From a virus: a stretch of 64,000 bases of DNA. Positions 17 to 46,900 of the stretch are shown piece after piece (position 1 is the first letter of the stretch; each line of letters begins with the position of its first letter). The stretch lies in IMG/VR virus record IMGVR_UViG_3300025000_000053, positions 185,854 to 249,853 of that record; one strand, written 5' to 3'. A model generated the notes under the pieces. The model was not told where the DNA came from. It did no database searches and saw only the letters and a list, made by a program, of their open reading frames with translations. The position numbers and the translations under genes are program-made.

Positions 17-3000
17 ATGTATATTACAGGTGGTGTTATTGATGTAGTTAGAAGGATTGGTGATAATACCTCTGACTTTACACAAAAACCAAAAGATGAT
101 AATAGAAGTAATATATTTGATAATTCAGATAATGTTGTTATGCCAGTAAGAGTAGATGGTGTTACTTCAGTTAGAATTGTTGGTTCGGATAGACCAATTC
201 CTATTTATTTTAATATGAATATGAATCAAAATCAACGTAGAAGTAATTCATTTAATAATAATATATCAGGATTGCCTAATTCAATTAATACGGGAAATAA
301 TAATTATTTAGTTTCTTCATTAACGAATGCACTTGATATATTTGATACAGAAAATGATAAAGAAGAAGAAAATAAACGAATAGAAAAAGAAAGAGAAAAA
401 GAATTATATCAAAACCAACTCGAAGTTTCTAAAAAAACATCAGGGTTCTTAATAGCTCAAAATAATTTAAGAAATGAAAAAGATTTTACTAGAAATAATG
501 AAATAAGACAGACATCATTATTGCAACAAATTGCAAATATATCAAAAAATCAACATGAAAGTTGGTTATCACTATTTGGTAAGAAAGGTATTTTAACAGT
601 TGCCTTTTTATTAACACTACCATATTTAGAAAAAATATTTAAATGGATTAAGGGATTTTTTGGTGGTGATGATGATACTGGTATTGGAGGTGGTATATCT
701 ACTGTTGTTAAAAAGGCATTAGGTTTAATAGAAAAAAACGATGGTAGTCGTAAAGATGCTGAAGATAAAGATATTATAAATGCTCAGGGTAGAGAAAGTT
801 ATATTAAAGGTACCGCTGTTTTAGCAAGAAGATATAGTCCTAAGTTAGTAAAAGCAATAGAAAAAGGTAAAGATAAAATAGCGAATTCTAATATTGTAAA
901 AAATGTTACTAGATATGGTTCAAATTTAAAAAATGCTTTTAATCCATCAAGTACTGTCAGAGGTGGAACTATTGATGCATCTTTCAAGGTTACTGATGAT
1001 ACTGGTAAAATAATTAAAGAAGTTACTGTAAATGATTCAAATAAAATTATTCAAGCTATTAAGAATACTTTTGAGAGATTTTTTAATAATTCATTTGTTA
1101 AGAAACTATTAGGTTCATCTGCTGGTAAAATAGCTAGTAAAATAATAAATGAAGTTACTAAAGTATTAAATTATAAGACTATGTTTAATAATATGGCTAA
1201 ATTATCAAAGGCTTTTTTAAGAACAGGTGTTATTATGTTTGCTGCCCCTGTAATAATATCTTGGGATTTAGCTACAGGTGCCTATGAAGCATCAAGAATA
1301 TTTAAAGTTGCAAATGAATCTGTTGATGGTAAAATGCAAATAGCTTCTTCTGTAACTAAAGCATTAATAGGATTCTTCCCAGTAATTGATATTTTATCAG
1401 AAATATTTAATGAGCAGACTGGTATGAGTTTAAAACAATATGTTGCAACAACTATTTATTCAATGTTAGCATCAACAGAAGAAATTAAAAAATTAGAAGT
1501 AGATAAAAAAGCTTTTGAGCAAGATAAAAATGAGTATAATGAAAAAAATAAAACTAAACTATCATTAAATGCATATAATGATATGAAAAATAAAACGTTC
1601 TTCCAGAAATTTATTAGTAATCCCTTATCAAAAACTAAAGATTTTATTGTGAAAACAGGAAGCAGTATCAGTAATAGTCTATCTGAAAATTGGGATAATT
1701 TTAAAGGTGGTTTTAGTAAAGGTTTTAAAATGATGGGTGATGATGTTTCTAATGCAATGTCTAAAACACCTGAAATGATTAAAACATTTAAGGATACATT
1801 ATCTAAAAATTGGAAAGAACTAAAAGATAATAGCGAAAAACAATGGAATAATATGAAAGGCTTTGTTTCTAAATCTTTAAAGGATACTAATAATACGTTG
1901 GGTATATTATTTGGATATAAAGATGAAGAAGGAAATGATGTTAGTTTTACAGAAGGATTTAATAAAGGATTTAAAGGACTTATAAAAAGCATTAGAGATA
2001 GTTGGAAAGATATTGGTGATGGTGCTAAATTTTATTGGGATAATACAAAAGCATTCACAGAAAGAAAATGGAAAGAATTAAGTGAGAAATTACCAAAGGC
2101 ATTTGAAAGTTTAGATAACTGGTTAGGTGAACTATTAGGATTTAAAGATAATGATGGTAATACATTATCTCTATCTGATTTTGCTAGTAAGCAATTTAAT
2201 ACTATTAAGAAATACTTATCCAATGGAAAAGGTTCATCGACATATTCTAGTGGAAAGGGTGGTAATGGAAACGGTGGGTTTGGTGAAGAACCTAATCAAC
2301 TTAATAATTTCACTTATTATTCACAATATGATGATAGATGGGGAAAAACAACATATGATTTAAGTAAAGGACATTCATCACAACCCACATTATCAGCCAG
2401 AGGTTGTGGTCCAACTTCTATGGCTATGGTTGTGAGTCAATTAACAGGTAAGAGATATGAACCACCTCAATTAGCTAAGATAGCTCAAGAAGGTGGATAC
2501 AGTACAAATGATGGAACAACCTGGGGATATTTTAATAAAGTTGCTAAAGATTTTAGTTTAGATACATCAACTGTTAATCCATCTAATACAATAAATTATC
2601 TTAATAATGGTATGCCTGTAATTCTATCTGGTAAAAGAGATAAATATTCATTTAATGATTCTCCATTTACGCCTGGTGGACATTATGTTGTTGCTGTTGG
2701 AAGAGATGAAAAGGGAAATATTTTAATAAATGATCCTAGAGGTTCTAAATTTTCTAAACCATATAATTATAATAAAGTAATTAAAGAAGCTCGACAAGGT
2801 TGGGCTTTTAGTTATAATGGTGGAATATTACCACCTAATATAGTTTCTTCTGATAATTCAAATAGTTCTAATAAAAAACTATCTACACTAGATTTATTTG
2901 CAAAAATGATAGAAGCATTTACATTATATGAGGAAAATAAAAGATTAGGGACAAATAAAAAATTATCATGGGATGATATTGAGGGTACTAGTAATGATTT

Positions 3001-4234
3001 TAATGTTTCAGTAACTACAACTAATGATTCTAATAGTTTAACTAATTTTGTACCTAAAACTTTACAAGAATCTATTTTAAAGAAAACATTAGAATTATCA
3101 ATAGGTTCAGAATCATCAGGTGATTATACTAGTTCTAATAATGATATTAATGCATCAACAGGCAAAAAAATTTCTCCATCAATAGGTATTTTACAATGGA
3201 GAGGTAATAATGCTAAAACTTTAATGCAAAAAATGTATGAACAACTACCTGGTAATAGTGAGGCGAATTATTTTGCCAATCAAGTAGATTGGGGTAATAA
3301 AAGTCCTTGGAATGATATTCAAAGAGCAAGATTGAAAAAATACCTTGGAGATAATTTAAGTGTAAGTCAAAAAGTTCAAAATGAAATGGCATTATCACAT
3401 ATTAGAGATACAAATTTAGCACCAGTTTATAAATATGGTGTTAATACCAATAAAATAAAAGATCCGAGATCAATAGCATTTCTTGCTGATTTTGCTAATA
3501 CAGGACCAGCTCTTGTTAAACCATTTTTAGATAAATATAATCCAAATAATGGTGGAAAACCTGAATTTGAACATTTTATGGATGAATTTAAGAATAAGAG
3601 TTATTGGGGTAATAAAGGGATTTATGCTAGTAGAATAAAAAACACTTATTCTAAATTATCTGGATGGACTCCTGAAGTTGGTGGTAATGGTAGTTTTAAT
3701 ATATCATCTAATTTTGATAAAACTGCTGGTGGTTTTGGTGGAGAAGAACAAATTATACTCAATAGTAATAAAATTAATTTAGAAAGATTTACAGGTGGAT
3801 TAGGTGATTTATCAACATCTATTTCTAATAAATATAAAGGTGAAAACCTCGGAATTAATCGTAATATATTTGAAAGTTTAAATAATGGAACAGGTGAATA
3901 TATTACTAATAATAGTAATAATACACAAAGTTCAAATATATCAATAAATGAAATTGTTACTGTTTTAAAAGAAATTGCAATAAATACTAACACTACATCA
4001 AAAGGTATTAATGAATTAACTAATAAAGAAATAATAATTAATGTAGAAAATAAACCAAGTATAAATGATAATAACCAAAATAATACTATTAATCTAAATT
4101 CACAACAACCTAAAAACGCAACATTTGTCAGTCCGTTTTTTCAATCTATGAATGAAAGAAGTAATACTGGAAATAGTAAGGAACAACGAGAATATACAAT
4201 AGCTAAAAAAATAGCCGGTGGGAGAGTTAATTAA
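17..4234 (+). CDS. Tail-associated lysin / tape-measure-like protein with C39-like peptidase and lysozyme-like domains
   Basis: 1405 residues. The N-terminal half is Asn/Lys-rich and helical with hydrophobic segments near residues 190-215 and 395-415, as in tape-measure proteins. At about 755-940 lies a C39-like cysteine peptidase domain: GCGPTSM with the nucleophile near Cys798, GGHYVVAVG (His near 888) and NDPRG (Asp near 905). At about 1030-1210 a lysozyme/transglycosylase-like domain carries ESSGDY and SIGILQWRG. Such pairs usually cut peptide cross-links and glycan during DNA entry. The role as tail lysin is inferred from domains plus the following structural gene. The reading frame stays open upstream to the window edge and no ribosome site precedes the ATG at 17, so the real start may lie outside the window. 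Confidence 0.8.
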   Translation: MYITGGVIDVVRRIGDNTSDFTQKPKDDNRSNIFDNSDNVVMPVRVDGVTSVRIVGSDRPIPIYFNMNMNQNQRRSNSFNNNISGLPNSINTGNNNYLVSSLTNALDIFDTENDKEEENKRIEKEREKELYQNQLEVSKKTSGFLIAQNNLRNEKDFTRNNEIRQTSLLQQIANISKNQHESWLSLFGKKGILTVAFLLTLPYLEKIFKWIKGFFGGDDDTGIGGGISTVVKKALGLIEKNDGSRKDAEDKDIINAQGRESYIKGTAVLARRYSPKLVKAIEKGKDKIANSNIVKNVTRYGSNLKNAFNPSSTVRGGTIDASFKVTDDTGKIIKEVTVNDSNKIIQAIKNTFERFFNNSFVKKLLGSSAGKIASKIINEVTKVLNYKTMFNNMAKLSKAFLRTGVIMFAAPVIISWDLATGAYEASRIFKVANESVDGKMQIASSVTKALIGFFPVIDILSEIFNEQTGMSLKQYVATTIYSMLASTEEIKKLEVDKKAFEQDKNEYNEKNKTKLSLNAYNDMKNKTFFQKFISNPLSKTKDFIVKTGSSISNSLSENWDNFKGGFSKGFKMMGDDVSNAMSKTPEMIKTFKDTLSKNWKELKDNSEKQWNNMKGFVSKSLKDTNNTLGILFGYKDEEGNDVSFTEGFNKGFKGLIKSIRDSWKDIGDGAKFYWDNTKAFTERKWKELSEKLPKAFESLDNWLGELLGFKDNDGNTLSLSDFASKQFNTIKKYLSNGKGSSTYSSGKGGNGNGGFGEEPNQLNNFTYYSQYDDRWGKTTYDLSKGHSSQPTLSARGCGPTSMAMVVSQLTGKRYEPPQLAKIAQEGGYSTNDGTTWGYFNKVAKDFSLDTSTVNPSNTINYLNNGMPVILSGKRDKYSFNDSPFTPGGHYVVAVGRDEKGNILINDPRGSKFSKPYNYNKVIKEARQGWAFSYNGGILPPNIVSSDNSNSSNKKLSTLDLFAKMIEAFTLYEENKRLGTNKKLSWDDIEGTSNDFNVSVTTTNDSNSLTNFVPKTLQESILKKTLELSIGSESSGDYTSSNNDINASTGKKISPSIGILQWRGNNAKTLMQKMYEQLPGNSEANYFANQVDWGNKSPWNDIQRARLKKYLGDNLSVSQKVQNEMALSHIRDTNLAPVYKYGVNTNKIKDPRSIAFLADFANTGPALVKPFLDKYNPNNGGKPEFEHFMDEFKNKSYWGNKGIYASRIKNTYSKLSGWTPEVGGNGSFNISSNFDKTAGGFGGEEQIILNSNKINLERFTGGLGDLSTSISNKYKGENLGINRNIFESLNNGTGEYITNNSNNTQSSNISINEIVTVLKEIAINTNTTSKGINELTNKEIIINVENKPSINDNNQNNTINLNSQQPKNATFVSPFFQSMNERSNTGNSKEQREYTIAKKIAGGRVN

Positions 4235-12907: not shown

Positions 12908-12965
12908 TTTGTTTATAAAACATATAAATAAAATAAATGTGTACGAAAGGAAGTGTAAAAATTCA

Positions 12966-14414
12966 ATGGGAGTTTTAAAAGATATAATGGATACACTTAG
13001 GGACATAGATATACATGGTAGTTTAGATGAATATTTTAAAAAAAAGAAATATTCATCTATAGCTAAACAATCCCAAGAAGGTACTCTTCAGTTCCCTGTT
13101 ATAGTTTCCAGAACATCACTTGATATAGAAAATCTTCAAACTATTTCCAGATCTTTAGAACGTCAATTTAGTTCTTTTGTTCAAATAGTTTTAACTATGA
13201 ATCCAGTTCTTAATATTGAAACTGAAAAGAACTTAGCAACATATTTAAGAAAGTTTCATCAAAATTCAGATAGTAAAACAGATATGAATGATATTACTAA
13301 TTTTTTTGTAGATATTGATAATTTGAAAGAAAATTATTTATTGTTGACAGATGAATATGATAACATTGCAATATTAACAGGTACATTTGAAGGTTGCTCT
13401 ACAAAACAAATTGTTGAAACCAATAGAGAGCAACTTAAAGTTATTTTAGAATATTTAAAATTAGATTTATTAAATGATAAGTTTACTCCAAATAATCAGT
13501 CATTGTATAAATTTAGTAATAATAATTTAACAAAATTTCATAATAGAAATGTTTTATTAGAAGCACCTAATAAACCACCTCAAGGTGGAGGGACAAAACC
13601 CCCACAACGTCCACCATATAAACCATCAGCACAAATAATTAGTAGTGTTGGAACTGTTAATAACACTTTTGTTAATAACACTAGTAAAGATAAAATTTAT
13701 AACGGTGGTGGTAGTGAATCAAAAAGATTGTCTGAATTTAATTTACCTAATAAAACATTAGTTGATAATGATGTTAAAAAATCAAATGAGTTAGTACCAA
13801 CTATGTTACACCTTCGTTTAAAATTGATAGATAAAAAAGGTGATAATCATGGTACACATGATTATTTAATAGGTATTAAAGCTGTTATTCATCCTGTAAA
13901 TTCTGAAGAAATGATAAGTAATGTTGTTAATGCTTGTAAAAACAATAATAAACTTTTTGATTTCATTAGATGGACTTCTGGTGAAATTAATTTCTTACAG
14001 GATTTTGTATTAAATATTAAAGAAATTAAAACCGATGTTAATAATAGAGGGAATGGTTCTTCTCCTTGGTGGATTACTTTAAAGAGAAGAAAAGCTTTAT
14101 CTAAAGTAAAAAATACATTACTTTTAGGTAATCAATTATTACCAAATACAACTTTAGTTCTATCTATGCAGGAAGTTGAATTAATTAAAGCGACATATGG
14201 ATATGATTTAATGAATACAACCTTTATTAATAAGGTTATGTTAGAATATTTCTTATTATGTGTTGTAATTGTTGATACTTCATCTCAATTAGCTCATTTT
14301 TTATTTGATGGGCAAAATTCTTATCAAACTAGTACATTTATTGGTTTGGAGAGAGAAAGTGGTTCGGATGAAAAGAAATTTAAAGAAATGCTTAAACTAA
14401 TTAATAGGGTTTAA
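12966..14414 (+). CDS. Hypothetical, probable virion protein with Pro-rich linker, 482 residues
   Basis: The start MGVLKDIMDTL at 12966 has AGGAAG about 13 nt upstream. Residues up to about 200 are helical. NVLLEAPNKPP then leads into a Pro/Gly-rich linker (QGGGTKPPQRPPYKPS), followed by a C-terminal domain of about 250 residues containing a hydrophobic stretch (LEYFLLCVVIVDTSSQLAHF). The LLE|A just before the linker fits a T4-type prohead protease site, as discussed for the multidomain protein at 32832. It sits directly before a probable membrane protein and four tandem paralogues, so an internal head or virion protein is plausible. Confidence 0.55.
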   Translation: MGVLKDIMDTLRDIDIHGSLDEYFKKKKYSSIAKQSQEGTLQFPVIVSRTSLDIENLQTISRSLERQFSSFVQIVLTMNPVLNIETEKNLATYLRKFHQNSDSKTDMNDITNFFVDIDNLKENYLLLTDEYDNIAILTGTFEGCSTKQIVETNREQLKVILEYLKLDLLNDKFTPNNQSLYKFSNNNLTKFHNRNVLLEAPNKPPQGGGTKPPQRPPYKPSAQIISSVGTVNNTFVNNTSKDKIYNGGGSESKRLSEFNLPNKTLVDNDVKKSNELVPTMLHLRLKLIDKKGDNHGTHDYLIGIKAVIHPVNSEEMISNVVNACKNNNKLFDFIRWTSGEINFLQDFVLNIKEIKTDVNNRGNGSSPWWITLKRRKALSKVKNTLLLGNQLLPNTTLVLSMQEVELIKATYGYDLMNTTFINKVMLEYFLLCVVIVDTSSQLAHFLFDGQNSYQTSTFIGLERESGSDEKKFKEMLKLINRV

Positions 14415-14443: not shown

Positions 14444-15436
14444 ATGTTTACATTGAATGAAGTTTCTAAAATATTAATTGAAAATGCAATTACTCTTAAA
14501 GAAAAAAATCAAATATATTCTCTTAAAGAATCAGATCAAAATATTGTTAATAATACAATGATATCCAATTTATATAAATCAGCTATAGAAAAAGCTCATG
14601 TAGATTTTAATGATATTCCTAATAGTAAAGGGGACTTAACTAAATTTTCAGGTTTTAAATCAATGTTAGATAGTGTTGATTTGTTACATCAATTATCTAA
14701 TAAAACTAATGTTAAAATTGATGAATTAGATATTTTAGATAAAGCTATAAACAATATTATTAATTATAAAGAATCTTTTGAAAAAGGATTTAAATTAGAA
14801 AAAGAATTTATTATTTTACAATATAATATTCTTGTTTGTGCATGTATAGAAGGTTTAAGTTCTATTATTTCATCTTATGTTGATTTTATAAAAAGACCTG
14901 ATAGAATAGAATTTACTTTAATTAAATCTCCTCAATTGACAGGTCGAATTTGTATTATGAATCTCGAAAAATTTAATTCTTGTGTACGTAGTGGTGAATT
15001 TGGTAAAGTTATTAAATCTGTTATCGATAGTGGTAAAGAAGGTTTTGTTGGAACCGAAACATTAATGATTGGTACTTTAATAGTCGGTGGAGTTTTAGTT
15101 TTAGTTCCATTAATGAGAGAATTAATTTTTTATTTTTATTATTCTAGATTAAAAATTTCAGAATATTTAAAAACTCAAGCCTTATTTTTAGAAATTAATA
15201 AAAATAATATTAATATGAATTCATCTTTAAATTCCAAAAATAAGAAACAAATTTTGGATAGACAACAAACTGTTATTAGGAATTTACAAGCATTATCTGA
15301 TAAAATCCGTGTTGACGATACAACTTCAACAACACAAACTTATAAAAATATGAATACGGAAAATAAAGGTTGGTCACTTGGTAGTGTTAAAACTCAATCT
15401 GCATCTGTAGATGGAAATGGGTTTAAGTTACTATAA
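14444..15436 (+). CDS. Hypothetical membrane-type protein, 330 residues
   Basis: A good AAGGGAGG site precedes the ATG. The N-terminal two thirds are helical. Residues about 205-228 (MIGTLIVGGVLVLVPLMREL) form a clear hydrophobic segment followed by aromatic and basic residues and a polar C-terminus. Near the N-terminus, ILIENA and SLKESD resemble the I/L-x-E cleavage pattern seen in neighbouring proteins. Function not recognised. It lies in one operon with the gene before (29 nt) and the four tandem paralogues after it. Confidence 0.6.
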   Translation: MFTLNEVSKILIENAITLKEKNQIYSLKESDQNIVNNTMISNLYKSAIEKAHVDFNDIPNSKGDLTKFSGFKSMLDSVDLLHQLSNKTNVKIDELDILDKAINNIINYKESFEKGFKLEKEFIILQYNILVCACIEGLSSIISSYVDFIKRPDRIEFTLIKSPQLTGRICIMNLEKFNSCVRSGEFGKVIKSVIDSGKEGFVGTETLMIGTLIVGGVLVLVPLMRELIFYFYYSRLKISEYLKTQALFLEINKNNINMNSSLNSKNKKQILDRQQTVIRNLQALSDKIRVDDTTSTTQTYKNMNTENKGWSLGSVKTQSASVDGNGFKLL

Positions 15437-15511: not shown

Positions 15512-16573
15512 ATGGCTATTTTTAATAGAGTAGGAAGAGGAATTACCATACCTTCATATAGTGGGTATGATTGTTTGGTTAATGGGGATTTGTTAGCAAT
15601 TCAAGAAGGTTATGAAGACCAATTGGCAATCATTGAGTCCATTCATGAAATGGATATAGAAGAAATTAATATGGAAAGTGATGTTAAAACTTTACGGGAA
15701 TCCGGTGCTGATGAAGTTAAAATTCAAACTCGTATTAATGAATTTGAATCTGTGGTTGAAAGTGCCATGGGTGGAGTCTGGGAAAACATTAAAGCGTTCT
15801 TCAGCAAAATGTGGGGTAAATTACAGCAGTTTTTTGCTTCTGTTATTCGTTTCTTTGACGGGTTGTTTAAAAGTGGTAAAGATTTTGCCACTAAATATGA
15901 GAAAGAACTTAGAAGGCTTAGTTTATCCGGTTATAAGCATAAAATGTTCAACTATAGTGAATTGGATGGTAACAATCATGTATCCAACGGTATCACTGTA
16001 GCAATGGAAATTGTAAATCAAACTGGAGCTTTAAAGAATTTCTCTTCTGACACTGAGGCTAAAAAATGTTTGGAAGATATGGAAGAAAATAAAGAAGAAA
16101 CCATTAATAAAGTTCGTGGAGCTTTTGTTGGCGGTGGTTCTAAAGATAGTGATGATTTTAAAAAAGGTCTATTCTCACACTTTAGGAGCGGTGCTAAAGA
16201 TAGTGAAGATATTGAAGAGCAATCCGTTAATATTGGAACCATTATTAATGCTTTAATAAGTGATAAATATGCTAAAATGGCAAAAGATTCTGAATCAGCC
16301 GCTGAGAAATCATTTACCACTATTATTAAAACTGTTAATGATAGGGAAAAAGAGTTTGGTAAATCTGTCGATGACAAGAATAAATCTGACGATAAGAGGA
16401 AACTTGCTTCTGTTCAAATTTCTATTATGCAAAAATATTCATCTTTGTTCAGTGAAGCCAAGACCATTGCCCTTGAATATTTTAGTGCATGGAAACAAGC
16501 TATTACTGAACGTGAGTCTGTATATAAGCAAGTATGTGTAAGTGCGTTTAGATATAAGGAAGAAAAAAAATAA
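15512..16573 (+). CDS. Tandem paralogue 1 of 4: amphipathic aromatic-core protein, probably packaged
   Basis: 353 residues. The central signature GVWENIKAFFSKMWGKLQ (about 88-105) is an aromatic/basic amphipathic helix, followed by a phrase on the model of F-D-G-L-F-K-S-G-K, then YEKELRRL and YKHKMFNYS. The same order recurs in the next three genes. Before the helix are four [I/L/V/N]xES motifs, the last VVE83|S84, matching a T4-type prohead protease signal; this would remove an acidic N-terminal propeptide. Codon use is visibly less AT-rich than most neighbours, which suggests high expression. Function unknown; an internal head protein delivered with the DNA is the inference. Confidence 0.65.
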   Translation: MAIFNRVGRGITIPSYSGYDCLVNGDLLAIQEGYEDQLAIIESIHEMDIEEINMESDVKTLRESGADEVKIQTRINEFESVVESAMGGVWENIKAFFSKMWGKLQQFFASVIRFFDGLFKSGKDFATKYEKELRRLSLSGYKHKMFNYSELDGNNHVSNGITVAMEIVNQTGALKNFSSDTEAKKCLEDMEENKEETINKVRGAFVGGGSKDSDDFKKGLFSHFRSGAKDSEDIEEQSVNIGTIINALISDKYAKMAKDSESAAEKSFTTIIKTVNDREKEFGKSVDDKNKSDDKRKLASVQISIMQKYSSLFSEAKTIALEYFSAWKQAITERESVYKQVCVSAFRYKEEKK

Positions 16574-16621
16574 TTGAATAATAAGAATATAAGTTAAAAA
16601 ATCAAAGGGGGATACATTCAA

Positions 16622-17707
16622 ATGGTTATTTTTGGACATAAGAGAACTAATGATGTAAATGTCGATTTTGATATTTCAAAATATGACCACATCCAACCTA
16701 CTACTGAAGCATTGGAACAAATCATAACAGAATCAGCTAAAGATTCTTATAAAATCCGTGCAAGTATATATATTTCGGATGTACTGATGGAGCAAGCTGT
16801 ACTGACTGAATCAGCTGATCCTCAAGTTCTTCTTGAGGTATTTGGTAAAGGTTTCTTTACCAAAATAAAAGACATGTTCGTAAGAATGTGGAATGCTATA
16901 AAAGCTTTCTTTGAAAAAATGAAAAGACAACTTATTTTGTTTTTCTCTTCCGGTAAAACTTTTGTAGAAAAGTTTGAAAATGAATTACGCAGTAAGAATG
17001 CAAAAGATTATAAGTACAAATCATTTAAATATACTCCGAGTAAAGGTGATAGTTATGGTAGTAAAGTACTTGATGCAATTAATTCAACTGAAAATGAATA
17101 TGAAAATAAACTTAGTAGTTTAGATGTAAGAGACGTTTCTAAACACAAGAGTGCAATGGATTCTAAAAAAGATAATATGAAGGATTCATATGATACCGGT
17201 GAGGAAAAAGAAGGTATATTTAAAAGTTTAAATGTTGATTCTATTTCTGAATTACAGGAAGAATCATATAAAGAGTACAGGAATGGTTCAAAAGAAAAAG
17301 AAGAATTTAAAGATTTTGAAAACAACAGTAAAGAAGACATGATTAAATTCATTAAAGACAAGGATAAAAATATAACTGACCTTGATAGATATCAGAAAGA
17401 TTTGGATTCTCATTTCAGTAAAGTAATTAAGGCTATTGAAGCCGCCGGAAGTAAGTATAAGAATGAGGAATTATCTAAGGTATCACCTTATGTTTCTCAT
17501 AGCGTTGAAATGTTGAGATTCTGTATGTCGATTCGTTCAGCATTAGTTAAGATGCATATCGATTATATAAAAGATGCAGCCAGTGATTTCGAATCTATTT
17601 TAAAAGGTTTTTTAAGATTTAAAGTAGTTAAAGAAAGTTTTGAAGGTAATTATGATGATGATAAAGGTATTACCAATATCTTTGAAGCAGCAATGAAATT
17701 AGTTTAA
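16622..17707 (+). CDS. Tandem paralogue 2 of 4
   Basis: 361 residues with AAAGGGGG before the start. It follows the same plan as its upstream neighbour: an acidic N-terminus with ITE37|S, LTE63|S and LLE72|V, then KIKDMFVRMWNAIKAFF, SSGKTFVEKFENELR and YKYKSFKYT, then a long charged helical region. The end (VVKESF and IFEAAMKLV) holds another VKES-type site. It is followed by a strong hairpin. Probably co-expressed with paralogue 1 and also packaged; no biochemical function is evident. Confidence 0.65.
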   Translation: MVIFGHKRTNDVNVDFDISKYDHIQPTTEALEQIITESAKDSYKIRASIYISDVLMEQAVLTESADPQVLLEVFGKGFFTKIKDMFVRMWNAIKAFFEKMKRQLILFFSSGKTFVEKFENELRSKNAKDYKYKSFKYTPSKGDSYGSKVLDAINSTENEYENKLSSLDVRDVSKHKSAMDSKKDNMKDSYDTGEEKEGIFKSLNVDSISELQEESYKEYRNGSKEKEEFKDFENNSKEDMIKFIKDKDKNITDLDRYQKDLDSHFSKVIKAIEAAGSKYKNEELSKVSPYVSHSVEMLRFCMSIRSALVKMHIDYIKDAASDFESILKGFLRFKVVKESFEGNYDDDKGITNIFEAAMKLV

Positions 17708-17715
17708 TATATTAA

Positions 17716-17755
17716 TACATTAGATGAATAGTAAATAAACTATTCATCTAATGTA
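17716..17755 (+). terminator. Strong hairpin terminator after paralogue 2
   Basis: A 17-bp stem TACATTAGATGAATAGT/ACTATTCATCTAATGTA with loop AAATAA is followed by TTTTAT. It separates paralogues 1-2 from 3-4. Confidence 0.85.
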
Positions 17756-17815
17756 TTTTATATTTTCTTTGAAAACAAATAAATAAGAAAAAAGAAAAGG
17801 AGTTGACTTTTATTT

Positions 17816-18895
17816 ATGAATTTAAAGAATATTTTCAATAAGAATAATTCTAATAATAAATCAATAAAAACCTTATTAACAACTGATGATATTGATTTTG
17901 ATACAAGTCAATCTTGTCTAGAATACTTTATATTACTAGAAGAAGATTATTTTAATATTAATAAGGAACATTTACAATCAGCACATATCGCTAATAAGGA
18001 TAAAAATATGGAAATAATACGAGAAGGTTTTAATGATTTTATTAATTCGGTTATTTCATTTTTTAAAAATCTTTTGGATAAATTCAAAGAATTTATGAAA
18101 AGAATATTTATGATAATATATGCTTATCTTGGTGATTTCGAAAAGTTCTTAGATAAGTATAAAGAACAGTTAAGAGGTTTAGACCCTAAATTTAATGTTA
18201 AAGGATTTAAATATTCTTTTAAATCAAATATACCTAATTTGGATATTATTAATAATATTATTAACTCATATAATAGTGAATTAAATGATATTGATAATAT
18301 GACAAAAGATAAAATTATAGAACAAAGAGAAAAATTTATGGCAACTGCTAATCTAAATAAAATTAGAGCTAATATTATTAGTGTATCAGGTGAAGTAAGT
18401 TCAGAGGATTATTTAAAAGATGTTAAAAAAATATTTAGAGATGGTAATGAAGAAAAAATAGATATAGAAGTAAATAAATCATTCTTAACAACAGTTATAG
18501 CAGATTACCCATTTCTAAAGAAAAATTATTCAGATGCTATTAAAGAAAGAGATGATATAATTGCAGTTATAGAAAAAATTAAATCATTCTTTGAAAAAAA
18601 TGCATCAGTTTATTATAAAGGTAAGGATAAAACTATTGGTACTAAATTATTAAATAGAAGTGGTAATAAAATTCAAACTGGAGATAATGTTGAAAAAAAT
18701 TATAGTGAAAGTAAAATTAATTTAATTAATACATTCTTTAGTTTTAAATTTGCACAATCAAAAGAAATTGGTAGTATGTGTACCATAGCATGTATTGAAA
18801 AGGTTAATGCACTAAAAGAATGCTTATCCTTTTATAGAGAAATTATTAAAAGATGTGCTTTTAAAGGACCTAAAAGTTCAACTGAAGTTAATTAA
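17816..18895 (+). CDS. Tandem paralogue 3 of 4
   Basis: 359 residues behind AAAGGAG. It diverges most at the N-terminus (Asn/Lys-rich) but keeps the core: INSVISFFKNLLDKFKEFMK, then KFLDKYKEQLRGL and VKGFKYSF. EIIRE70|G71 stands directly before the amphipathic helix, in the same place as the I/V/L-x-E motifs of the other copies. It is more AT-rich than copies 1 and 2. Function as for the family: unknown, probably a packaged head protein. Confidence 0.6.
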   Translation: MNLKNIFNKNNSNNKSIKTLLTTDDIDFDTSQSCLEYFILLEEDYFNINKEHLQSAHIANKDKNMEIIREGFNDFINSVISFFKNLLDKFKEFMKRIFMIIYAYLGDFEKFLDKYKEQLRGLDPKFNVKGFKYSFKSNIPNLDIINNIINSYNSELNDIDNMTKDKIIEQREKFMATANLNKIRANIISVSGEVSSEDYLKDVKKIFRDGNEEKIDIEVNKSFLTTVIADYPFLKKNYSDAIKERDDIIAVIEKIKSFFEKNASVYYKGKDKTIGTKLLNRSGNKIQTGDNVEKNYSESKINLINTFFSFKFAQSKEIGSMCTIACIEKVNALKECLSFYREIIKRCAFKGPKSSTEVN

Positions 18896-18918
18896 AAAAT
18901 AATACGAGGTGAAAAACT

Positions 18919-20007
18919 ATGGACTATTGTTTGGAAACAAGTATATTCCATTTAGAAACTGACAAACAATTCTTTTCTACATTATTGGAAAGAATGGAAC
19001 AAGAATCACAATCTATTAATAAATCAATAGATGATAATTTTATTGTATTAGAGGCTGATACTACAAATAATAATCAAGGGATATGGGAGAAAATTAAAGC
19101 TTTCTTTAAACGTATCTTCGGTGTATTTTCAACTAAAACTAAAACACTTTTTGATTCAAATAAAAAATGGATGGATGAAAATTTTAATAAATTAGATAAA
19201 ATTAATTATGATAAGTTAAAAATAGTCATGTTACCATTTTGGTCAATGACTATTAATGATATTAAAGGTGTTCTTAATACAATTCAAGGAATAGCTGATA
19301 ATGAATTAAATAATCCTAAAAGATTAGAAAAATATAAAGATGTAGATGAAATGAAGAATACTTTATTTAAGGAATATTTTAATGAAGACAATGATTTAAC
19401 TTTAGGGTTAAAAAATAAATTTAGGAGTAATAATCCTAAAGGTCCTATTAAAACACAAGAATTATCTGGAGGAGAGTTAAAAAATAAGGTTGCTGAATTT
19501 AAAGATTATTGTTACAATTATGGTAAAGATATAACACCTATGATTCAAGCTTTGATTAATAAAGCTGAACAATCTTTAAATCGTATAGAAAGAGTTCTAA
19601 AAGAATCTATAAATTTTTGTTTAGTTGAAAGTGCCTTTTATTCTCAAACTGAACTATTTTATTGTAGTAATTTTGAAGCTGTGTTTGAAGCTGATGAAAC
19701 AAATAAAGATGATAAAAAGAAAGATGAAAAAAAACCTGGTGATGCTTCAACTAAACCAACCGAAGTATCAGTGGTTAATACAGATGATAAGAGTAAAGTT
19801 GATGAACACGAAGAAAATAAGAAATACTCTAATGTGAGTAATTCACAACTTACTATGTATAAAAATATAGCCCAAATTATTCAATTAGCTATAACTTCAG
19901 CAATGACAGTTTTAGAAGAAAGATTTAGTGCTTATTTAAATGCTTTAAAGAAAATTGTTGCTGAAGCTGGTGGAAATATAAATAATAATCCTGATGATAA
20001 AAAATAA
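18919..20007 (+). CDS. Tandem paralogue 4 of 4
   Basis: 362 residues with GAGGTG before the ATG, 23 nt after paralogue 3. FIVLE45|A46 precedes GIWEKIKAFFKRIFGVF, which repeats the GVWENIKAFF signature of copy 1. A second set of LKES/LVES/FEAD motifs occurs near residues 225-260, followed by a Lys/Asp-rich linker, so the C-terminal part may be released as a separate piece. The block ends in a bidirectional terminator. Function unknown. Confidence 0.6.
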   Translation: MDYCLETSIFHLETDKQFFSTLLERMEQESQSINKSIDDNFIVLEADTTNNNQGIWEKIKAFFKRIFGVFSTKTKTLFDSNKKWMDENFNKLDKINYDKLKIVMLPFWSMTINDIKGVLNTIQGIADNELNNPKRLEKYKDVDEMKNTLFKEYFNEDNDLTLGLKNKFRSNNPKGPIKTQELSGGELKNKVAEFKDYCYNYGKDITPMIQALINKAEQSLNRIERVLKESINFCLVESAFYSQTELFYCSNFEAVFEADETNKDDKKKDEKKPGDASTKPTEVSVVNTDDKSKVDEHEENKKYSNVSNSQLTMYKNIAQIIQLAITSAMTVLEERFSAYLNALKKIVAEAGGNINNNPDDKK

Positions 20008-32831: not shown

Positions 32832-35800
32832 TCATTTTTTAATATTTAGACAAAATAATATATATGAATTTAAATCTAAACCATAATCGATTTCATTAGG
32901 TACAGCACTCCATACTAATAATGGATATTTTTTATTCGATTCTATTTTAGAATGTATACTCTCAATATATTGTTTCAGATGTATTAAAGAATTAAAAGGA
33001 CCATGAATTCCTAATTGTTCACCCCAAGAAGTTTCAATCCAATAAATCTTTTCATTTTTAATATAATAACATAAAGTATGATTAAAACCACCAGTATTTT
33101 CTTTTTCATTATATTCAATAAAGAATAAACAATTAGCTTTATATATCTTATTATTATTAAATAAATTACGAATAAAAATTGCTTGTTCATGTGATGAGCC
33201 ATTTTGAGATTCAATAAGTTCATCATCATTTTTTAATATAGTAAAGTCAGAATTCTTAATATTATTTCTCATAAAATTATATACATCTTCATCACCATTA
33301 AAATTAGGTAAATCAGTTAGATATAATTCAGTAACAATATTACTTTCATATTGCTTTATTATTGTTAATGTATTTTTATCAACTGCATCTTTATTATAAT
33401 TCTCTAATTTACCCCTAGTTACAAAATGAGTTTTTTTATGTTTAGCAAAGTCATACGGTTTATATAAACTAGGATGTTTATCAATCATACCATTATTAGA
33501 AGCCTTCAATATTTCAGCTACAAATTGACTACAAAAATATTCATTTTGTCTATCAGTTTCTTTACCAATAGAAATATTAAATAATCCAATAAAACTAAAT
33601 TTTAATTTGTCTTTTTTCTTTTTAAAATCTTCTAATCTATTTATCATTAATTCTTTTTGTTCTTTAGTAACAAATAATACATAGAGTGAATAAATTGTAT
33701 CTTTAGTAACATCTTTAAGTAAACCATCTTTTATATCTTCATTAATAAATGTCATATTGGAATCTTTAAATTTTCTACCAAAACTATACATATCATTCAT
33801 ACTACTATCAAAAGAGATACTTACATGACTATATACATCACCAGTAACAAATTTAATTACTTTAGCCATATTAGTACTAGTGAAAGTTAATAGAATAAAT
33901 ACTGGATATAAATTATTATTATCGTAAGATTCCTTAATAATTTCCCCTATTCTTGCCTTATAATTAATAGTTAATTCTTCACCTTTATTGATATTTTTTA
34001 TACTATAAAGATGATATTTACCATTATCATTAACTATTTTTAAATTAGGAGTATCTGAATGATTAAAATAATTATCAAAATTATTAATATCATCTTTTTT
34101 TATTGAAGTTTCACCTATTATATTATTCATATTAATATCTTTTTTAACAAATGAACCTTTAGCTAATTTACTAGTTATTATAAAAGATTCCTTAACAAAA
34201 TCTCTTTCACCTTCAAAATCAAATTGTTTATAATCTATAGTTAGTTCTTCACCTTTTTTAATTTTATTTTTAGATTTATAAAAATAAACTTTCTTTCCAT
34301 TTCTAATAGTTTGAACTAATACTAAATTAGGATTATTTGAATGATTAACAAATTGACCCGCTTTAGTTCGTTTATAATCTTTATCCGGATTATCAGTATC
34401 ATTAACTTTCTTTATAGCTAATAATTTAGTATTAGAATCAATATTTTTATTTGCAAATATACCTTTACCTGATATTTTTGAATCTTTAACATTATAGTAT
34501 GTTTCATTTATATGAATTAATTTAACACCTGTTGTATAATTATGATTTATTTTAATACCATTTTTATTTATATAGTTCATAAATTCAATAGTAGTTAAAT
34601 TATATTTATCAATTTTATATTCATATATACTAAATTTAAAAGACTCACCTTCATCTTCAAACATATTTTTCAATATAAAGTTAAATATATCTTTTAAAGA
34701 ATTTGATTCATATATCCCTTGAATTTTTTTATATGATGATTCAAAATAATAAAATTTATTATTATTTATATAAACTAAAAAAGTATGTGTTGAAGAATTT
34801 TTATTTTTTAATTCAATATAATAAGTTTTAAATTTAAAATTGAATTTTTTATTAAATATATTTCTTTCAAATTCAGTATAATCCCAACATACACCAACCT
34901 TATATTTATAAAAATCCTTTGGAGAAATAGTTTTGTATAAATTAAAAAATTCATCACCTGATAAATTATCAGCTAATATTTTTTTATCTTTAGTTAATAT
35001 ACCATATTTAAAATCATTAAGGATTTTATTTAATTCTAAAGGATTATTTATTTTAGAGATTTCATCTATATATGATTCCTTTAAAACATCTTCTATTCCA
35101 GCTTCTTTTTCCATTTTAACCAACCTAGTATAATAATCAGGGATTTCATCTAAATGGTCTTTAGCTATCATTCTAGCTTTATCTAAATTTTTAGTATGTT
35201 CCTGTTCAATTTCTATACCAATTTTTAATTGTTCAGAATCATAATCAGAATCTGGTCTTATATCATAACTAAGGTCAATAGCTTTTTCATCTTTATTTTC
35301 TTCTATAAAAGATTCTTTAATAAATTCATCAAGAGATTTAATAAACCTTATATGAGTTTTATTAACCATATCACTTTTTTGTTCTTTAAATCCATATTTT
35401 TTAGCTAATTTGATAGATATATTATTAGTCTTTTTTATATTTAGAACAATTGATGTTATATCTCTTTTAGATCGATGGCAGAATTGAATACCTTCATTCA
35501 TTAAAGCATGAGAAATACCTTTTCCACGAAATTCTTCTTTAATAAATATATTAAAGAAAGCATACCCTCTTTTAACCTTTACTTCAATAAATCCAGCATT
35601 TTTATTACCAACTTTATAAATATATCTAAAAGCTACTTTATTATAAAATTCCCTTGGTCCTAATTTTTCATTATTATCATTATCTCCTAATATTCTTAAT
35701 GCACGATGATATTCAGCTTCTATTATAATATCAACATTATTATAACTTTCAGATATTAAATACTCAATTTCTTTATTTTTTAAAAAATTTATCCACTCAT

Positions 35801-37367
35801 CTTCAACTTGTTCAATTTTTAATCCAAATATATTAAAGAAATATTTCTTCATTGTATTTAAAGAATTCATTTTTGGTAAACTATCAATAAATTCTTTTAT
35901 TTTTTTTATTAAAATTAGATTTAACTGTCCTTGACCAAGAAGATATGTTATAAATGAACCAGCTATAGAATATGAAACAATAGTTTGTAATTTACTAAAT
36001 TCATTATTATCATAAATAATATTTTCGAGTTTACTAAATCCTCGTTCCATAATTAATTTAGCATTATCGTGAATGGAATATTTTCCAAACCACCCTATAT
36101 CATTTTTATATTTTTCATCTAAAAATCTCGGCCATGAATAATACATAGCTATTCCCTCAGTCCAAAACATTCCAGAAATTTTAAACCCTTTCCAAATATT
36201 TTCTATTCCTGATATATTAAACATAGTTACAATATGTGCAACTTCATGAGTATCAGATGAATGAATACTTTGTACTACAAGTTCATGGGGAAATGCTCTA
36301 CCCTTACCTTTCATTCCAGTAAGTTGAATATAATTATGTTCTGGTAATTTGTAATATGTTATTTTTTTCCCAATAGGAAAATTCCAATTTGATGCCACTA
36401 TAGACATAAAGTTTTCTAATCGTTTAATAGCTTTTTTAATTTCATAAAAGTTTTCATCTTTTGAATATTTATATATAAAATGTTTTGATTCTTCAGTATC
36501 CCATTCGAATATTGGGTGAATGATTATATCTTTTTGTTTATACAAACTTTTTTCAGTTAATACTTCCGTATTATTATTAATATCATTAAAAGATTCCATT
36601 AAAACAAATATGGGTCTGTTATCTTCACCATTAGATTCAATATATCTATCTTTAGCTTGTTTTAAAAATTCAAATATAGAATCATAATTCTTATTAGTAA
36701 CTTTTATATAGCTAAAAGTTGTTTGACTCATTAATACCTTATCCTTTAATCTTTCTTTAACTTTATCTACTGCTTGAATTTTACCATGTTTATTTTCATT
36801 ATCCCCACCATCTTTAACCTCTATTTCTAATCCTAAAGAAGCTATAAATGCATCTGGTATATAAAATTTTTCTTCACCTTCATATTCATAATAATAAACA
36901 TGAGGTGATGGTGTCATTACATCGTCTGAATCAAATTGTAAAAATATATCTAAGAATTTTAATAAATCTAATTCATATGAACCAGTATATGTTTTTTTAG
37001 CTCCATCTGACCATATATACTCACCTGAAATTTTTCTATTAGCTAACATTTTCTTTTGTTGTTCAGGGTTACTTAATAAATGAATTTTACCATATTTACC
37101 AATCATTCTTTTTTTAAATATTTCCCTATATATATCTTTACATTTAGGATTTTCACAAAATCTTTTATACTTATTAGTTACATTACACCATTTAGTAGGT
37201 TTTTTACAAATAATACATCTACCTTTATCTTTACCTGTTTTTAAAAAATAAAAATATTGTGATGACGTAAAATTTTTAGGTATCAGTCCATTATGTTCAT
37301 CTTCAAGATGTTGATATAAATCTTCAATATGATTAAATTTATCATTACATATAGTACATTTAATCAA
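32832..37367 (-). CDS. Giant multidomain protein: nuclease, zinc peptidase, GNAT, transglutaminase-like, SET and C92-like domains; candidate packaged polyprotein
   Basis: Numbering is from a GTG at 37379 (1515 residues); the TTG at 37367 has better spacing to GAGAGGG. In order: zinc finger (CTICNDKF, 8-30) and Cys cluster; PD-(D/E)xK nuclease (PD 175-176, EVK 187-189); gluzincin peptidase (HEVAH 378-382, WTEG Glu408); GNAT (RGKG 618-621); DUF5661-like (GIEIEQEHT near 721); transglutaminase-like (Cys831, His865, Glu880); SET (GKGIFA 971, NHSNNPN 1012, GEELTIDY 1043); short second SET (NHSDTPN 1106, GEELTINY 1133); C92/YiiX-like amidase (His1185, Cys1283); a degenerate transglutaminase-like domain with Ser1396 in the Cys place. 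VLMESF, LISESY, FIKESF, VLKESY, FVKESF and IIKESY stand at the borders (Glu262, 544, 689, 768, 1064, 1150), like prohead protease sites. Confidence 0.75.
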   Translation of the reverse strand: MIKCTICNDKFNHIEDLYQHLEDEHNGLIPKNFTSSQYFYFLKTGKDKGRCIICKKPTKWCNVTNKYKRFCENPKCKDIYREIFKKRMIGKYGKIHLLSNPEQQKKMLANRKISGEYIWSDGAKKTYTGSYELDLLKFLDIFLQFDSDDVMTPSPHVYYYEYEGEEKFYIPDAFIASLGLEIEVKDGGDNENKHGKIQAVDKVKERLKDKVLMSQTTFSYIKVTNKNYDSIFEFLKQAKDRYIESNGEDNRPIFVLMESFNDINNNTEVLTEKSLYKQKDIIIHPIFEWDTEESKHFIYKYSKDENFYEIKKAIKRLENFMSIVASNWNFPIGKKITYYKLPEHNYIQLTGMKGKGRAFPHELVVQSIHSSDTHEVAHIVTMFNISGIENIWKGFKISGMFWTEGIAMYYSWPRFLDEKYKNDIGWFGKYSIHDNAKLIMERGFSKLENIIYDNNEFSKLQTIVSYSIAGSFITYLLGQGQLNLILIKKIKEFIDSLPKMNSLNTMKKYFFNIFGLKIEQVEDEWINFLKNKEIEYLISESYNNVDIIIEAEYHRALRILGDNDNNEKLGPREFYNKVAFRYIYKVGNKNAGFIEVKVKRGYAFFNIFIKEEFRGKGISHALMNEGIQFCHRSKRDITSIVLNIKKTNNISIKLAKKYGFKEQKSDMVNKTHIRFIKSLDEFIKESFIEENKDEKAIDLSYDIRPDSDYDSEQLKIGIEIEQEHTKNLDKARMIAKDHLDEIPDYYTRLVKMEKEAGIEDVLKESYIDEISKINNPLELNKILNDFKYGILTKDKKILADNLSGDEFFNLYKTISPKDFYKYKVGVCWDYTEFERNIFNKKFNFKFKTYYIELKNKNSSTHTFLVYINNNKFYYFESSYKKIQGIYESNSLKDIFNFILKNMFEDEGESFKFSIYEYKIDKYNLTTIEFMNYINKNGIKINHNYTTGVKLIHINETYYNVKDSKISGKGIFANKNIDSNTKLLAIKKVNDTDNPDKDYKRTKAGQFVNHSNNPNLVLVQTIRNGKKVYFYKSKNKIKKGEELTIDYKQFDFEGERDFVKESFIITSKLAKGSFVKKDINMNNIIGETSIKKDDINNFDNYFNHSDTPNLKIVNDNGKYHLYSIKNINKGEELTINYKARIGEIIKESYDNNNLYPVFILLTFTSTNMAKVIKFVTGDVYSHVSISFDSSMNDMYSFGRKFKDSNMTFINEDIKDGLLKDVTKDTIYSLYVLFVTKEQKELMINRLEDFKKKKDKLKFSFIGLFNISIGKETDRQNEYFCSQFVAEILKASNNGMIDKHPSLYKPYDFAKHKKTHFVTRGKLENYNKDAVDKNTLTIIKQYESNIVTELYLTDLPNFNGDEDVYNFMRNNIKNSDFTILKNDDELIESQNGSSHEQAIFIRNLFNNNKIYKANCLFFIEYNEKENTGGFNHTLCYYIKNEKIYWIETSWGEQLGIHGPFNSLIHLKQYIESIHSKIESNKKYPLLVWSAVPNEIDYGLDLNSYILFCLNIKK

Positions 37368-37436
37368 ATTAAAACACACCCTCTCATTATTCTATTATTT
37401 AAATGTTAATTATATATAAAAGATATAACTAAATAA

Positions 37437-45817: not shown

Positions 45818-46837
45818 TTAACTTCTTTTATATATAGTTATATAAGGTGATGTACTATGTGCTACAACTAGATAAATACTATCTGGTGAGAAAGAACATC
45901 CATTACCAGTACCTGTAGGTAATATATCCGGATCAGATAATTTAGTAAATGTATCTCCACTTCTTTTATATATAGTTATATAAGGTGATGTACTATGTGC
46001 TACAACTAGATAAATAATATCTGGTGAGAAAGAACAACCATAACCAACACCTGTGGGTAATATACTAGGATTAGCCAATTTAGTAAATGTATCACCACTT
46101 CTTTTATATATAGTTATATATGGTGATGTATTATGTGCCACAGCTAGATAATTATTATCTGGTGAGAAAGAACAACCATAACCAACACCTGTGGGTAATA
46201 TATCTGGATCAGGTAATTTAGTAAAAGTATCTCCACTTCTTTTATATATAGTTATATATGGACTATTGTTATGTCCTACAACTAAATAATTATTATCTGG
46301 TGAGAAAAAACAACCATAACCAGTACCTATAGGTAGTACACTAGGATTATCTAATTTAGTAAAAGTATCACCAGATCTTTTATATATAGTTATATATGGA
46401 CTATTTTTATGTGATATAGCTAAATAATTATTATCTGATGAAAAAGAACAATCAAAACCTTGTCCTGTAGGTAATATACTAGGATCAGGTAATTTAGTAA
46501 ATGTATCACCACTTCTTTTATATATAGTTACATATGGTGAAATATAATGTGCTACAGTTAAATAATTATTATCTGGTGAGAAAGAACAACCATAACAATA
46601 CCCTGGAGGTAATACACTTGGATCAGGTAATTTAGTAAAGGTATCACCATCTCTTTTATATATAGTTATATAAGGTGATGTATCATGTCCTACAGCCAAA
46701 TAATTATTATCTGATGAAAAAAAACTTTCATAAGCATTGTTAGTAGGTAATATACTAGGATTATCTAATTTAGTAAATATACCACCAATATTACTATTAT
46801 TTTTAAAACTACTCATTAATATTAAGTTACTTAACAT
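45818..46837 (-). CDS. Seven-bladed beta-propeller protein, probable tail adhesin
   Basis: 340 residues from MLSNLILMSS at 46837, preceded by AAAGG at good spacing; an in-frame ATG 19 codons upstream has no such site. After 20 residues it is seven repeats of about 46 residues, each reading like TFTKLPDPSVLP, then GYGCSFSPDNNYL, then AHNTSPYITIYKRSGD. Seven repeats with an SPDNNYLAV core match a seven-bladed propeller (WD40/lactonase-like). No catalytic pattern is visible; propellers in phage virions usually bind ligands or receptors. Its place behind a tail-like gene fits an adhesin. The last repeat is cut at KRS, so blade closure by the N-terminus is expected. Confidence 0.75.
   Translation of the reverse strand: MLSNLILMSSFKNNSNIGGIFTKLDNPSILPTNNAYESFFSSDNNYLAVGHDTSPYITIYKRDGDTFTKLPDPSVLPPGYCYGCSFSPDNNYLTVAHYISPYVTIYKRSGDTFTKLPDPSILPTGQGFDCSFSSDNNYLAISHKNSPYITIYKRSGDTFTKLDNPSVLPIGTGYGCFFSPDNNYLVVGHNNSPYITIYKRSGDTFTKLPDPDILPTGVGYGCSFSPDNNYLAVAHNTSPYITIYKRSGDTFTKLANPSILPTGVGYGCSFSPDIIYLVVAHSTSPYITIYKRSGDTFTKLSDPDILPTGTGNGCSFSPDSIYLVVAHSTSPYITIYKRS
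45822..46770 (-). repeat. Tandem DNA repeats of 138 bp within the propeller gene
   Basis: Seven units of 138 bp, for example the CTTCTTTTATATATAGTTAT segment recurring at 45822 and 45960. Neighbouring units near the 3' end of the gene are almost identical at DNA level, while the 5' ones differ more, so recent duplication or gene conversion is likely. Confidence 0.8.
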
Positions 46838-46900
46838 ATTAATCAACCTTTCTTTATAAGTATTTAATATAATGTTGAAAAGTATTAGAAACATAAAAAT

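Follow-up and report, generated by a model that had tools for sequence, protein, structure and literature searches.

Tandem candidate internal head proteins of the phiKZ type, with predicted prohead-protease sites, in an AR9/PBS1-related jumbo phage

The window analyzed here, the final 64 kb of the 249,853-bp virus record IMGVR_UViG_3300025000_000053, carries on its plus strand four tandem genes encoding P1 (353 residues; 15512..16573), P2 (361 residues; 16622..17707), P3 (359 residues; 17816..18895) and P4 (362 residues; 18919..20007). These are probably cleaved internal head proteins of the phiKZ type, belonging to a jumbo phage related to AR9 and PBS1. In the mechanism suggested by the sequences, each precursor would begin with a flexible stretch of 45 to 83 residues, which, by analogy with T4, probably carries the protein into the prohead; a targeting role for a propeptide has likewise been hypothesized for SPN3US gp47. 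A prohead protease of the S77/S80 type would then cut after the Glu of [LIV]-x-E, usually with a small residue next. The longer segments would be cut at multiple points, with the final cut directly before a conserved amphipathic helix. The released peptides would exit the head, and the helical core would stay with the DNA, probably to be ejected into the host.

That P1–P4 are four tandem paralogues, as a first-pass annotation of the window had claimed, is borne out by BLASTP (P1–P2, E = 2e-11; P1–P3, 1.5e-5 or 4e-4 depending on direction; P1–P4, 6e-4) and by profile comparison (P1+P2 against P3, 5e-11; against P4, 6e-5). The six Glu sites singled out in that annotation are all at the residues claimed: VVE83↓S in P1, LLE72↓V, ITE37↓S and LTE63↓S in P2, IRE70↓G in P3 and VLE45↓A in P4 (the arrow marks the candidate cut). 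The candidate propeptides comprise residues 1–83 of P1 (15512..15760, +), 1–72 of P2 (16622..16837, +), 1–70 of P3 (17816..18025, +) and 1–45 of P4 (18919..19053, +), ending at VVE83, LLE72, IRE70 and VLE45, respectively. In P1, whose shared amphipathic helix region spans residues 90–136 (15779..15919, +), three sites beyond the original six were found, IQE32↓G, IIE42↓S and LRE63↓S.

The form [LIV]xE[SAG] occurs eight times in the pre-helix segments of P1–P4 (289 residues), where 1.24 occurrences are expected, and none of 5000 shuffles reaches 8. The remainder of the four proteins holds six against 3.2 expected, a count matched by 11% of shuffles, and the density of the motif is 27.7 per 1000 residues before the helix versus 3.0 over 56 window proteins (P1–P4 included). 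The cut position was tried with 15 residues, subsite P3 with seven residue classes and subsite P1' with six; this form alone was enriched. In a spacing control, [LIV]xE[SAG] was again overrepresented (8 versus 1.26), [LIV]xxE[SAG] was mildly raised (5 versus 1.22; 35/5000 shuffles), and the other spacings were flat. In all four proteins an [LIV]xE lies 12 residues or fewer from the helix, an arrangement seen in 0.5% of shuffles; with the form [LIV]xE[SAGV], it was seen in 0/20000. An S/A/G-x-E rule was rejected for this phage, [SAG]xE[SAG] being observed 0 times against 0.92 expected.

Orthologous arrays on four other virus contigs (L001, L018, L020 and L021) were compared with that of the window (n = 5 genomes). 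Their pre-helix segments hold 10, 8, 9 and 9 copies of [LIV]xE[SAG], against 1.0 to 1.5 expected, but the five genomes are related and such orthologue counts are not independent samples. Aligning the copies and their homologues around the Glu residues, the check proposed in the first-pass annotation, revealed a pre-helix [VLI]xE that each of the four proteins keeps in 5/5 genomes. The sequences at this site are, in P1, VVE↓S, VTE↓G, VTE↓G, VTE↓G and VAE↓G; in P2, LLE followed by V, A, A, G and A; in P3, IRE↓G, LQE↓S, LQE↓G, LTE↓G and LTE↓G; and in P4, VLE↓A, LLE↓A, VLE↓S, LFE↓E and LLE↓E. The aligned pre-helix Glu is invariant across 12 P1, P2 and P3 sequences, one of just eight such columns. 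Further from the helix, the motif at P1 E42, P1 E63 and P2 E37 is retained in 5/5 genomes; at P2 E63 the alignment column fails in two genomes, but these have a shifted VFE↓G or VLE↓S.

AlphaFold models of P2 (built from 12 sequences; mean predicted local distance difference test, pLDDT, 69.7) and P4 (from five; mean pLDDT 60.2) are of moderate confidence. Both place helical cores between segments of pLDDT <50, which cover residues 1–74 and, bar one residue, 336–361 (336–350 and 352–361) of P2, and residues 1–56 and 226–306 of P4; thin alignments may also contribute to this low model confidence. The sites at P2 37, 63, 72, 338 and 355 and at P4 45, 229, 237 and 257 fall in the low-confidence parts. 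The first-pass proposal of prohead-protease-type processing before a conserved core is supported in silico, in that the motif is specific and conserved and a protease of the right families is encoded; the single common cut it envisaged is too simple. To judge from the several candidate sites in P1 and P2, these two at least would be processed at more than one site.

A more elaborate scheme is conceivable but doubtful. P2 could be a multi-part precursor that loses both its N-terminal segment and a C-terminal tail (17633..17704, +) bearing the candidate sites VKE338↓S and IFE355↓A, and a cut in the predicted disordered linker of P4 (residues 226–306; 19594..19836, +), at LKE229↓S, LVE237↓S or VFE257↓A, could release a second helical protein, residues 258–362. 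The end of the P4 linker resembles the N-terminal segment of the same protein (DYCLETSIF...VLEAD and NFCLVESAF...VFEAD), which would make P4 a small polyprotein comprising two head proteins that are ejected. At the C-terminus of P2 (17678–17704), a peptide I[FL]E↓AA[MI] is conserved after a variable linker in 5/5 arrays, which suggests C-terminal trimming.

With the P2 model, Foldseek returned 7/382 viral matches at E <= 1e-3, one of them the AR9 virion protein A0A172JI05 (268 residues), and jumbo-phage virion and internal head proteins appeared further down the ranking. By protein length alone, we infer that A0A172JI05 is AR9 gp95 and that A0A141HSG3 (368 residues) is BpSp gp272. The P4 model gave 0/19 viral matches at E <= 1e-3, and comparison with solved structures yielded generic helical bundles only (best Z 9.7). 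The AR9 virion proteins gp95 (LLNE50↓GLSNGLKKII) and gp165 (ILNE49↓NLTDSILRVL) share the site–helix layout of P1–P4, and their joint profile matches P3 at 2.3e-4 (28–91 to 48–122), which would put residue 50 opposite P3 E70 if the preceding part is ungapped. A search of this genome with AR9 gp95 found no copy. As an observation in its own right, gp95 and gp165 (L010:29153-29959 (-) and L009:15908-16717 (+)) have [LIV]xE about six residues before an amphipathic helix and are candidates for further internal head proteins, although they are not annotated as such; by site and helix, they are the closest relatives of the array among cultured phages.

A prohead protease of 276 residues is encoded at G000:C1 31369-32199 (-), located through homology to the AR9 head maturation protease, gp113 (3.5e-26). 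It scores above both relevant Pfam cut-offs, Peptidase_S77, the T4 gp21 type (34.1 bits; cut-off 27), and Peptidase_S80, the phiKZ type (25.8; cut-off 23.4); the prohead proteases of T4, phiKZ, 201phi2-1 and SPN3US are all reported to cleave after Glu (PMC5694885). The motif recurs in the major capsid protein (MCP) of AR9, where residues 1–84 hold five [LIV]xE[SAG] against 0.39 expected (0/5000 shuffles) and the remaining 447 residues hold one. A cut at LQE84↓S would give a computed product of 49.4 kDa from this 531-residue protein. The PBS1 MCP, also of 531 residues (58.9 kDa), is reported at ~50 kDa once processed, by sodium dodecyl sulfate–polyacrylamide gel electrophoresis (PMC5646251); the two sizes are close, but that of mature PBS1 MCP is a gel estimate and not an N-terminal sequence, which weakens the parallel. 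In the MCP of this genome the corresponding site is IKE101↓S, and three relatives keep [IV]xE↓[SA] there.

A second likely substrate is AR9 gp077 (L010:12577-13845), of which, according to its record, virions contain the RNA polymerase (RNAP) domain only; IKE265↓S and LLE273↓A lie at the start of that domain. Three [LIV]xE[SAG] sites are found between the hydrolase and RNAP domains of this virion RNAP subunit, which the record describes as proteolyzed. In this genome the homologue of the RNAP domain is a 175-residue open reading frame (ORF) that starts at the domain, without the leading hydrolase domain.

The strongest rival explanation, which we consider unlikely, also makes P1–P4 internal head or core proteins, but regards the pre-helix Glu as a structural residue that caps or starts the helix and leaves the N-terminal segment in place. 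The Glu indeed stands directly before the helix, where acidic residues are common, and its conservation alone is not special: 11/16 Glu in [LIV]xE are conserved, against 6/14 of the other Glu in the region (Fisher p 0.145, not significant), a result that also counts against cleavage. The mildly raised [LIV]xxE[SAG] spacing fits a structural role as well. What such a role leaves aside is the form of the site, with a hydrophobic residue two positions before, a small one after and a middle residue that varies, as in the P3 series above. Moreover, the enrichment of the motif extends to sites away from the helix (P1 E42 and E63; P2 E37) and to the propeptide of the AR9 MCP, and none is seen with Asp or Lys in place of the Glu.

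The family to which P1–P4 belong was approached through gene order, which in the window parallels that of the Bacillus jumbo phages AR9, PBS1 and BpSp. Upstream of the array lie a head gene (12909..14414, +) related to AR9 gp213 and, remotely, to phiKZ gp89 and SPN3US gp50 (phrog_23804, 2.6e-31; phrog_3239, 0.003), and a relative of the AR9 virion structural protein gp214 (14444..15436, +; phrog_23545, 6.4e-29; tblastn against AR9, 26.5%, 8e-11). The TTG start listed for 12909–14414 is probably too early; the ORFs of two relatives start with MGVLKD, at about residue 20 here. Both phiKZ gp89 and SPN3US gp50 belong to phrog_3239, which AR9 gp213 matches at 1.7e-14, and phiKZ gp89 matches phrog_23804 at 6.9e-6. 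In phiKZ, gp89-gp90-gp91 are followed by the internal head proteins gp92-gp96 in tandem; in SPN3US, gp50-gp51-gp52 are followed by gp53-gp54. Given this shared gene order, P1–P4, which are located in the head cluster after the gp89/gp50 homologue, occupy the slot of internal head proteins.

The equivalent slot in AR9 and BpSp consists of two genes, gp215-gp216 and gp272-gp273, respectively. By position, these are the nearest cultured relatives of the array. Their annotations do not name them internal head proteins; that of AR9 gp215 is virion structural, and BpSp Gp272 was reported in purified virions by mass spectrometry (11 peptides, 31.3% coverage; PMC4870245). An acidic string, EDVELDE, is present at both ends of AR9 gp215 (L004:13022-14140), possibly as a repeated signal.

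Remote homology to SPN3US-type proteins was detected by profile comparison for P2 (2e-5) and P1+P2 (1.3e-4), with reversed decoys of both at 0.005 to 0.04, and more weakly for P4 (0.0012, narrower profile). The P1+P2 score of 41.1 exceeds the highest of 200 block shuffles (28.4), and 0/200 reach it. Residues 88–136 of P1 align with residues 138–189 of SPN3US gp54, a stretch that starts at the residue after the gp54 cut (after residue 137). Against phiKZ gp93-95, the P1+P2 profile aligned other regions, not the helix. The P2 orthologue of L021 matches PF12699 (phiKZ_IP) as its best Pfam match, at 27.2 bits (cut-off 27; E = 2.9e-6), and the L021 P1 protein scores 17.6 bits; 4/10 proteins scanned matched at E <= 10, and in another set of 25 sequences six matched, one being SPN3US gp54 itself. 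Searches of the phage collection by tblastn with P1 and P3 found no convincing relative. T4 internal-protein families were absent among the PHROG and Pfam matches of the four proteins at E <= 1, no direct comparison having been made. On these comparisons, together with the gene order and the BpSp virion relative, P1–P4 are most likely divergent phiKZ-type internal head (ejection) proteins. The first-pass annotation had proposed candidate internal head proteins like the internal proteins (IPs) of T4; gene order and the BpSp virion relative support the candidacy, and the family is most likely that of phiKZ-type PF12699 rather than the T4 IPs.

Several observations weigh against the assignment to cleaved phiKZ-type proteins. 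None of the window proteins reaches the PF12699 cut-off (P2, 10.1 bits, E = 0.43; P1, P3 and P4, no match), and a search of this genome with the PF12699 model returned nothing at E <= 10. P3 and the AR9 gp215 group give no signal against SPN3US-type profiles, and P1 alone is at decoy level, hence ambiguous, against the wider SPN3US-type profile. Regarding the cleavage signal, AR9 gp215 and its BpSp relative are without [LIV]xE[SAG] beside the helix, and the MCP N-terminus of this genome has just one such site. In P4, the residue after the Glu is A, A, S, E and E across the arrays, the gap between Glu and helix is 7 to 14 residues versus 5 in P1–P3, and a further site, VAE349↓A, sits in a predicted helix. 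Lastly, according to PMC5646251, PBS1 did not show linear bubbling of an inner body as phiKZ does. The internal arrangement of SPN3US is also reported to be unlike that of phiKZ despite substantial internal protein (PMC7552025), its gp53 and gp54 being abundant (PMC5694885); an inner body is therefore not to be assumed here.

Two other roles for the array can be compared with that of retained internal head proteins. It is very unlikely that P1–P4 are prohead scaffold or core proteins that are chopped up and lost. P1, P2 and P4 each have several candidate sites, and T4 gp21 is reported to cleave head-core proteins, most of whose fragments exit the head; the cores of P1 and P3, however, are without [LIV]xE[SAG], the BpSp positional relative was reported in purified virions, and the phiKZ and SPN3US counterparts are described as retained. 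A tape-measure-like or other tail role is hardly credible, as the matches of P4 (0.0018) and P1 (0.039) to a tape-measure PHROG are weak and of a kind typical of long helices, AR9 has a separate tape-measure gene, and the best Pfam score of the P2 orthologue is phiKZ_IP.

If P1–P4 are indeed processed internal head proteins, the phiKZ-type set extends to the AR9/PBS1 branch, known in culture from phages of Bacillus, and this branch would use a T4-like [LIV]xE cleavage rule, which would allow its prohead substrates to be predicted from sequence alone. A known kind of protein would then appear to be extended to a phage branch in which it was previously unrecognized. A 2016 comparison reported several SPN3US head proteins without easily detectable AR9 homologues, and no description of internal head or ejection proteins of AR9/PBS1-type phages was found in the titles and abstracts of the open-access literature searched.

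Elsewhere in the window, a 1515-residue protein (32832–37379, -) combines a match to an endonuclease PHROG at its N-terminus with a GNAT acetyltransferase domain (582–680), DUF5661 (714–759) and a SET domain (best stretch 1091–1141), a fusion unusual in phage. A 1405-residue protein (17–4234) has a C39-like peptidase domain at 764–907, and a 358-residue protein (45818–46894, -) has matches of the beta-propeller type scattered over short stretches.

Among known systems, T4 offers a likeness of mechanism and motif, an analogy and not family membership. T4 IPI-III and Alt are reported to be internal and ejected, with an N-terminal targeting peptide of ~10 to 20 residues removed by the prohead protease, and the ITE and LTE at which Alt is cut (PMC5694885) are of the same motif class as the candidate sites of P1–P4. 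In P1–P4 the candidate propeptides run to residues 45 to 83, not just to the end of a short (~10–20 residues) targeting sequence as in T4, although an earlier first cut, for example at P2 E37 or P1 E32, is possible from the sequence. The likeness to phiKZ is one of family and gene order: gp93, gp94, gp95, gp162 and gp163 are reported as PF12699 internal head proteins (PMC5694885), and the gp92-gp96 tandem after gp89-gp91 is mirrored by the array; the phiKZ cleavage motif, cited as of the S-x-E type in the same source, differs from [LIV]-x-E here. SPN3US gp53 and gp54 (PF12699, paralogue family A) resemble the array in being tandem paralogues after gp50-51-52 with a multi-site propeptide and a pre-helix cut. 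Their propeptides, of 125 and 137 residues, are reported to be cut into small pieces by a protease with the motif A-x-E (PMC10052503). The array differs in its [LIV]-x-E motif, its propeptides of 45 to 83 residues and its four copies instead of two. SPN3US gp54, for which the measured peptide (E)SLWDDIK(A) places a cut right before the equivalent helix (PMC10052503), is the closest experimental parallel to the processing predicted for P1–P4.

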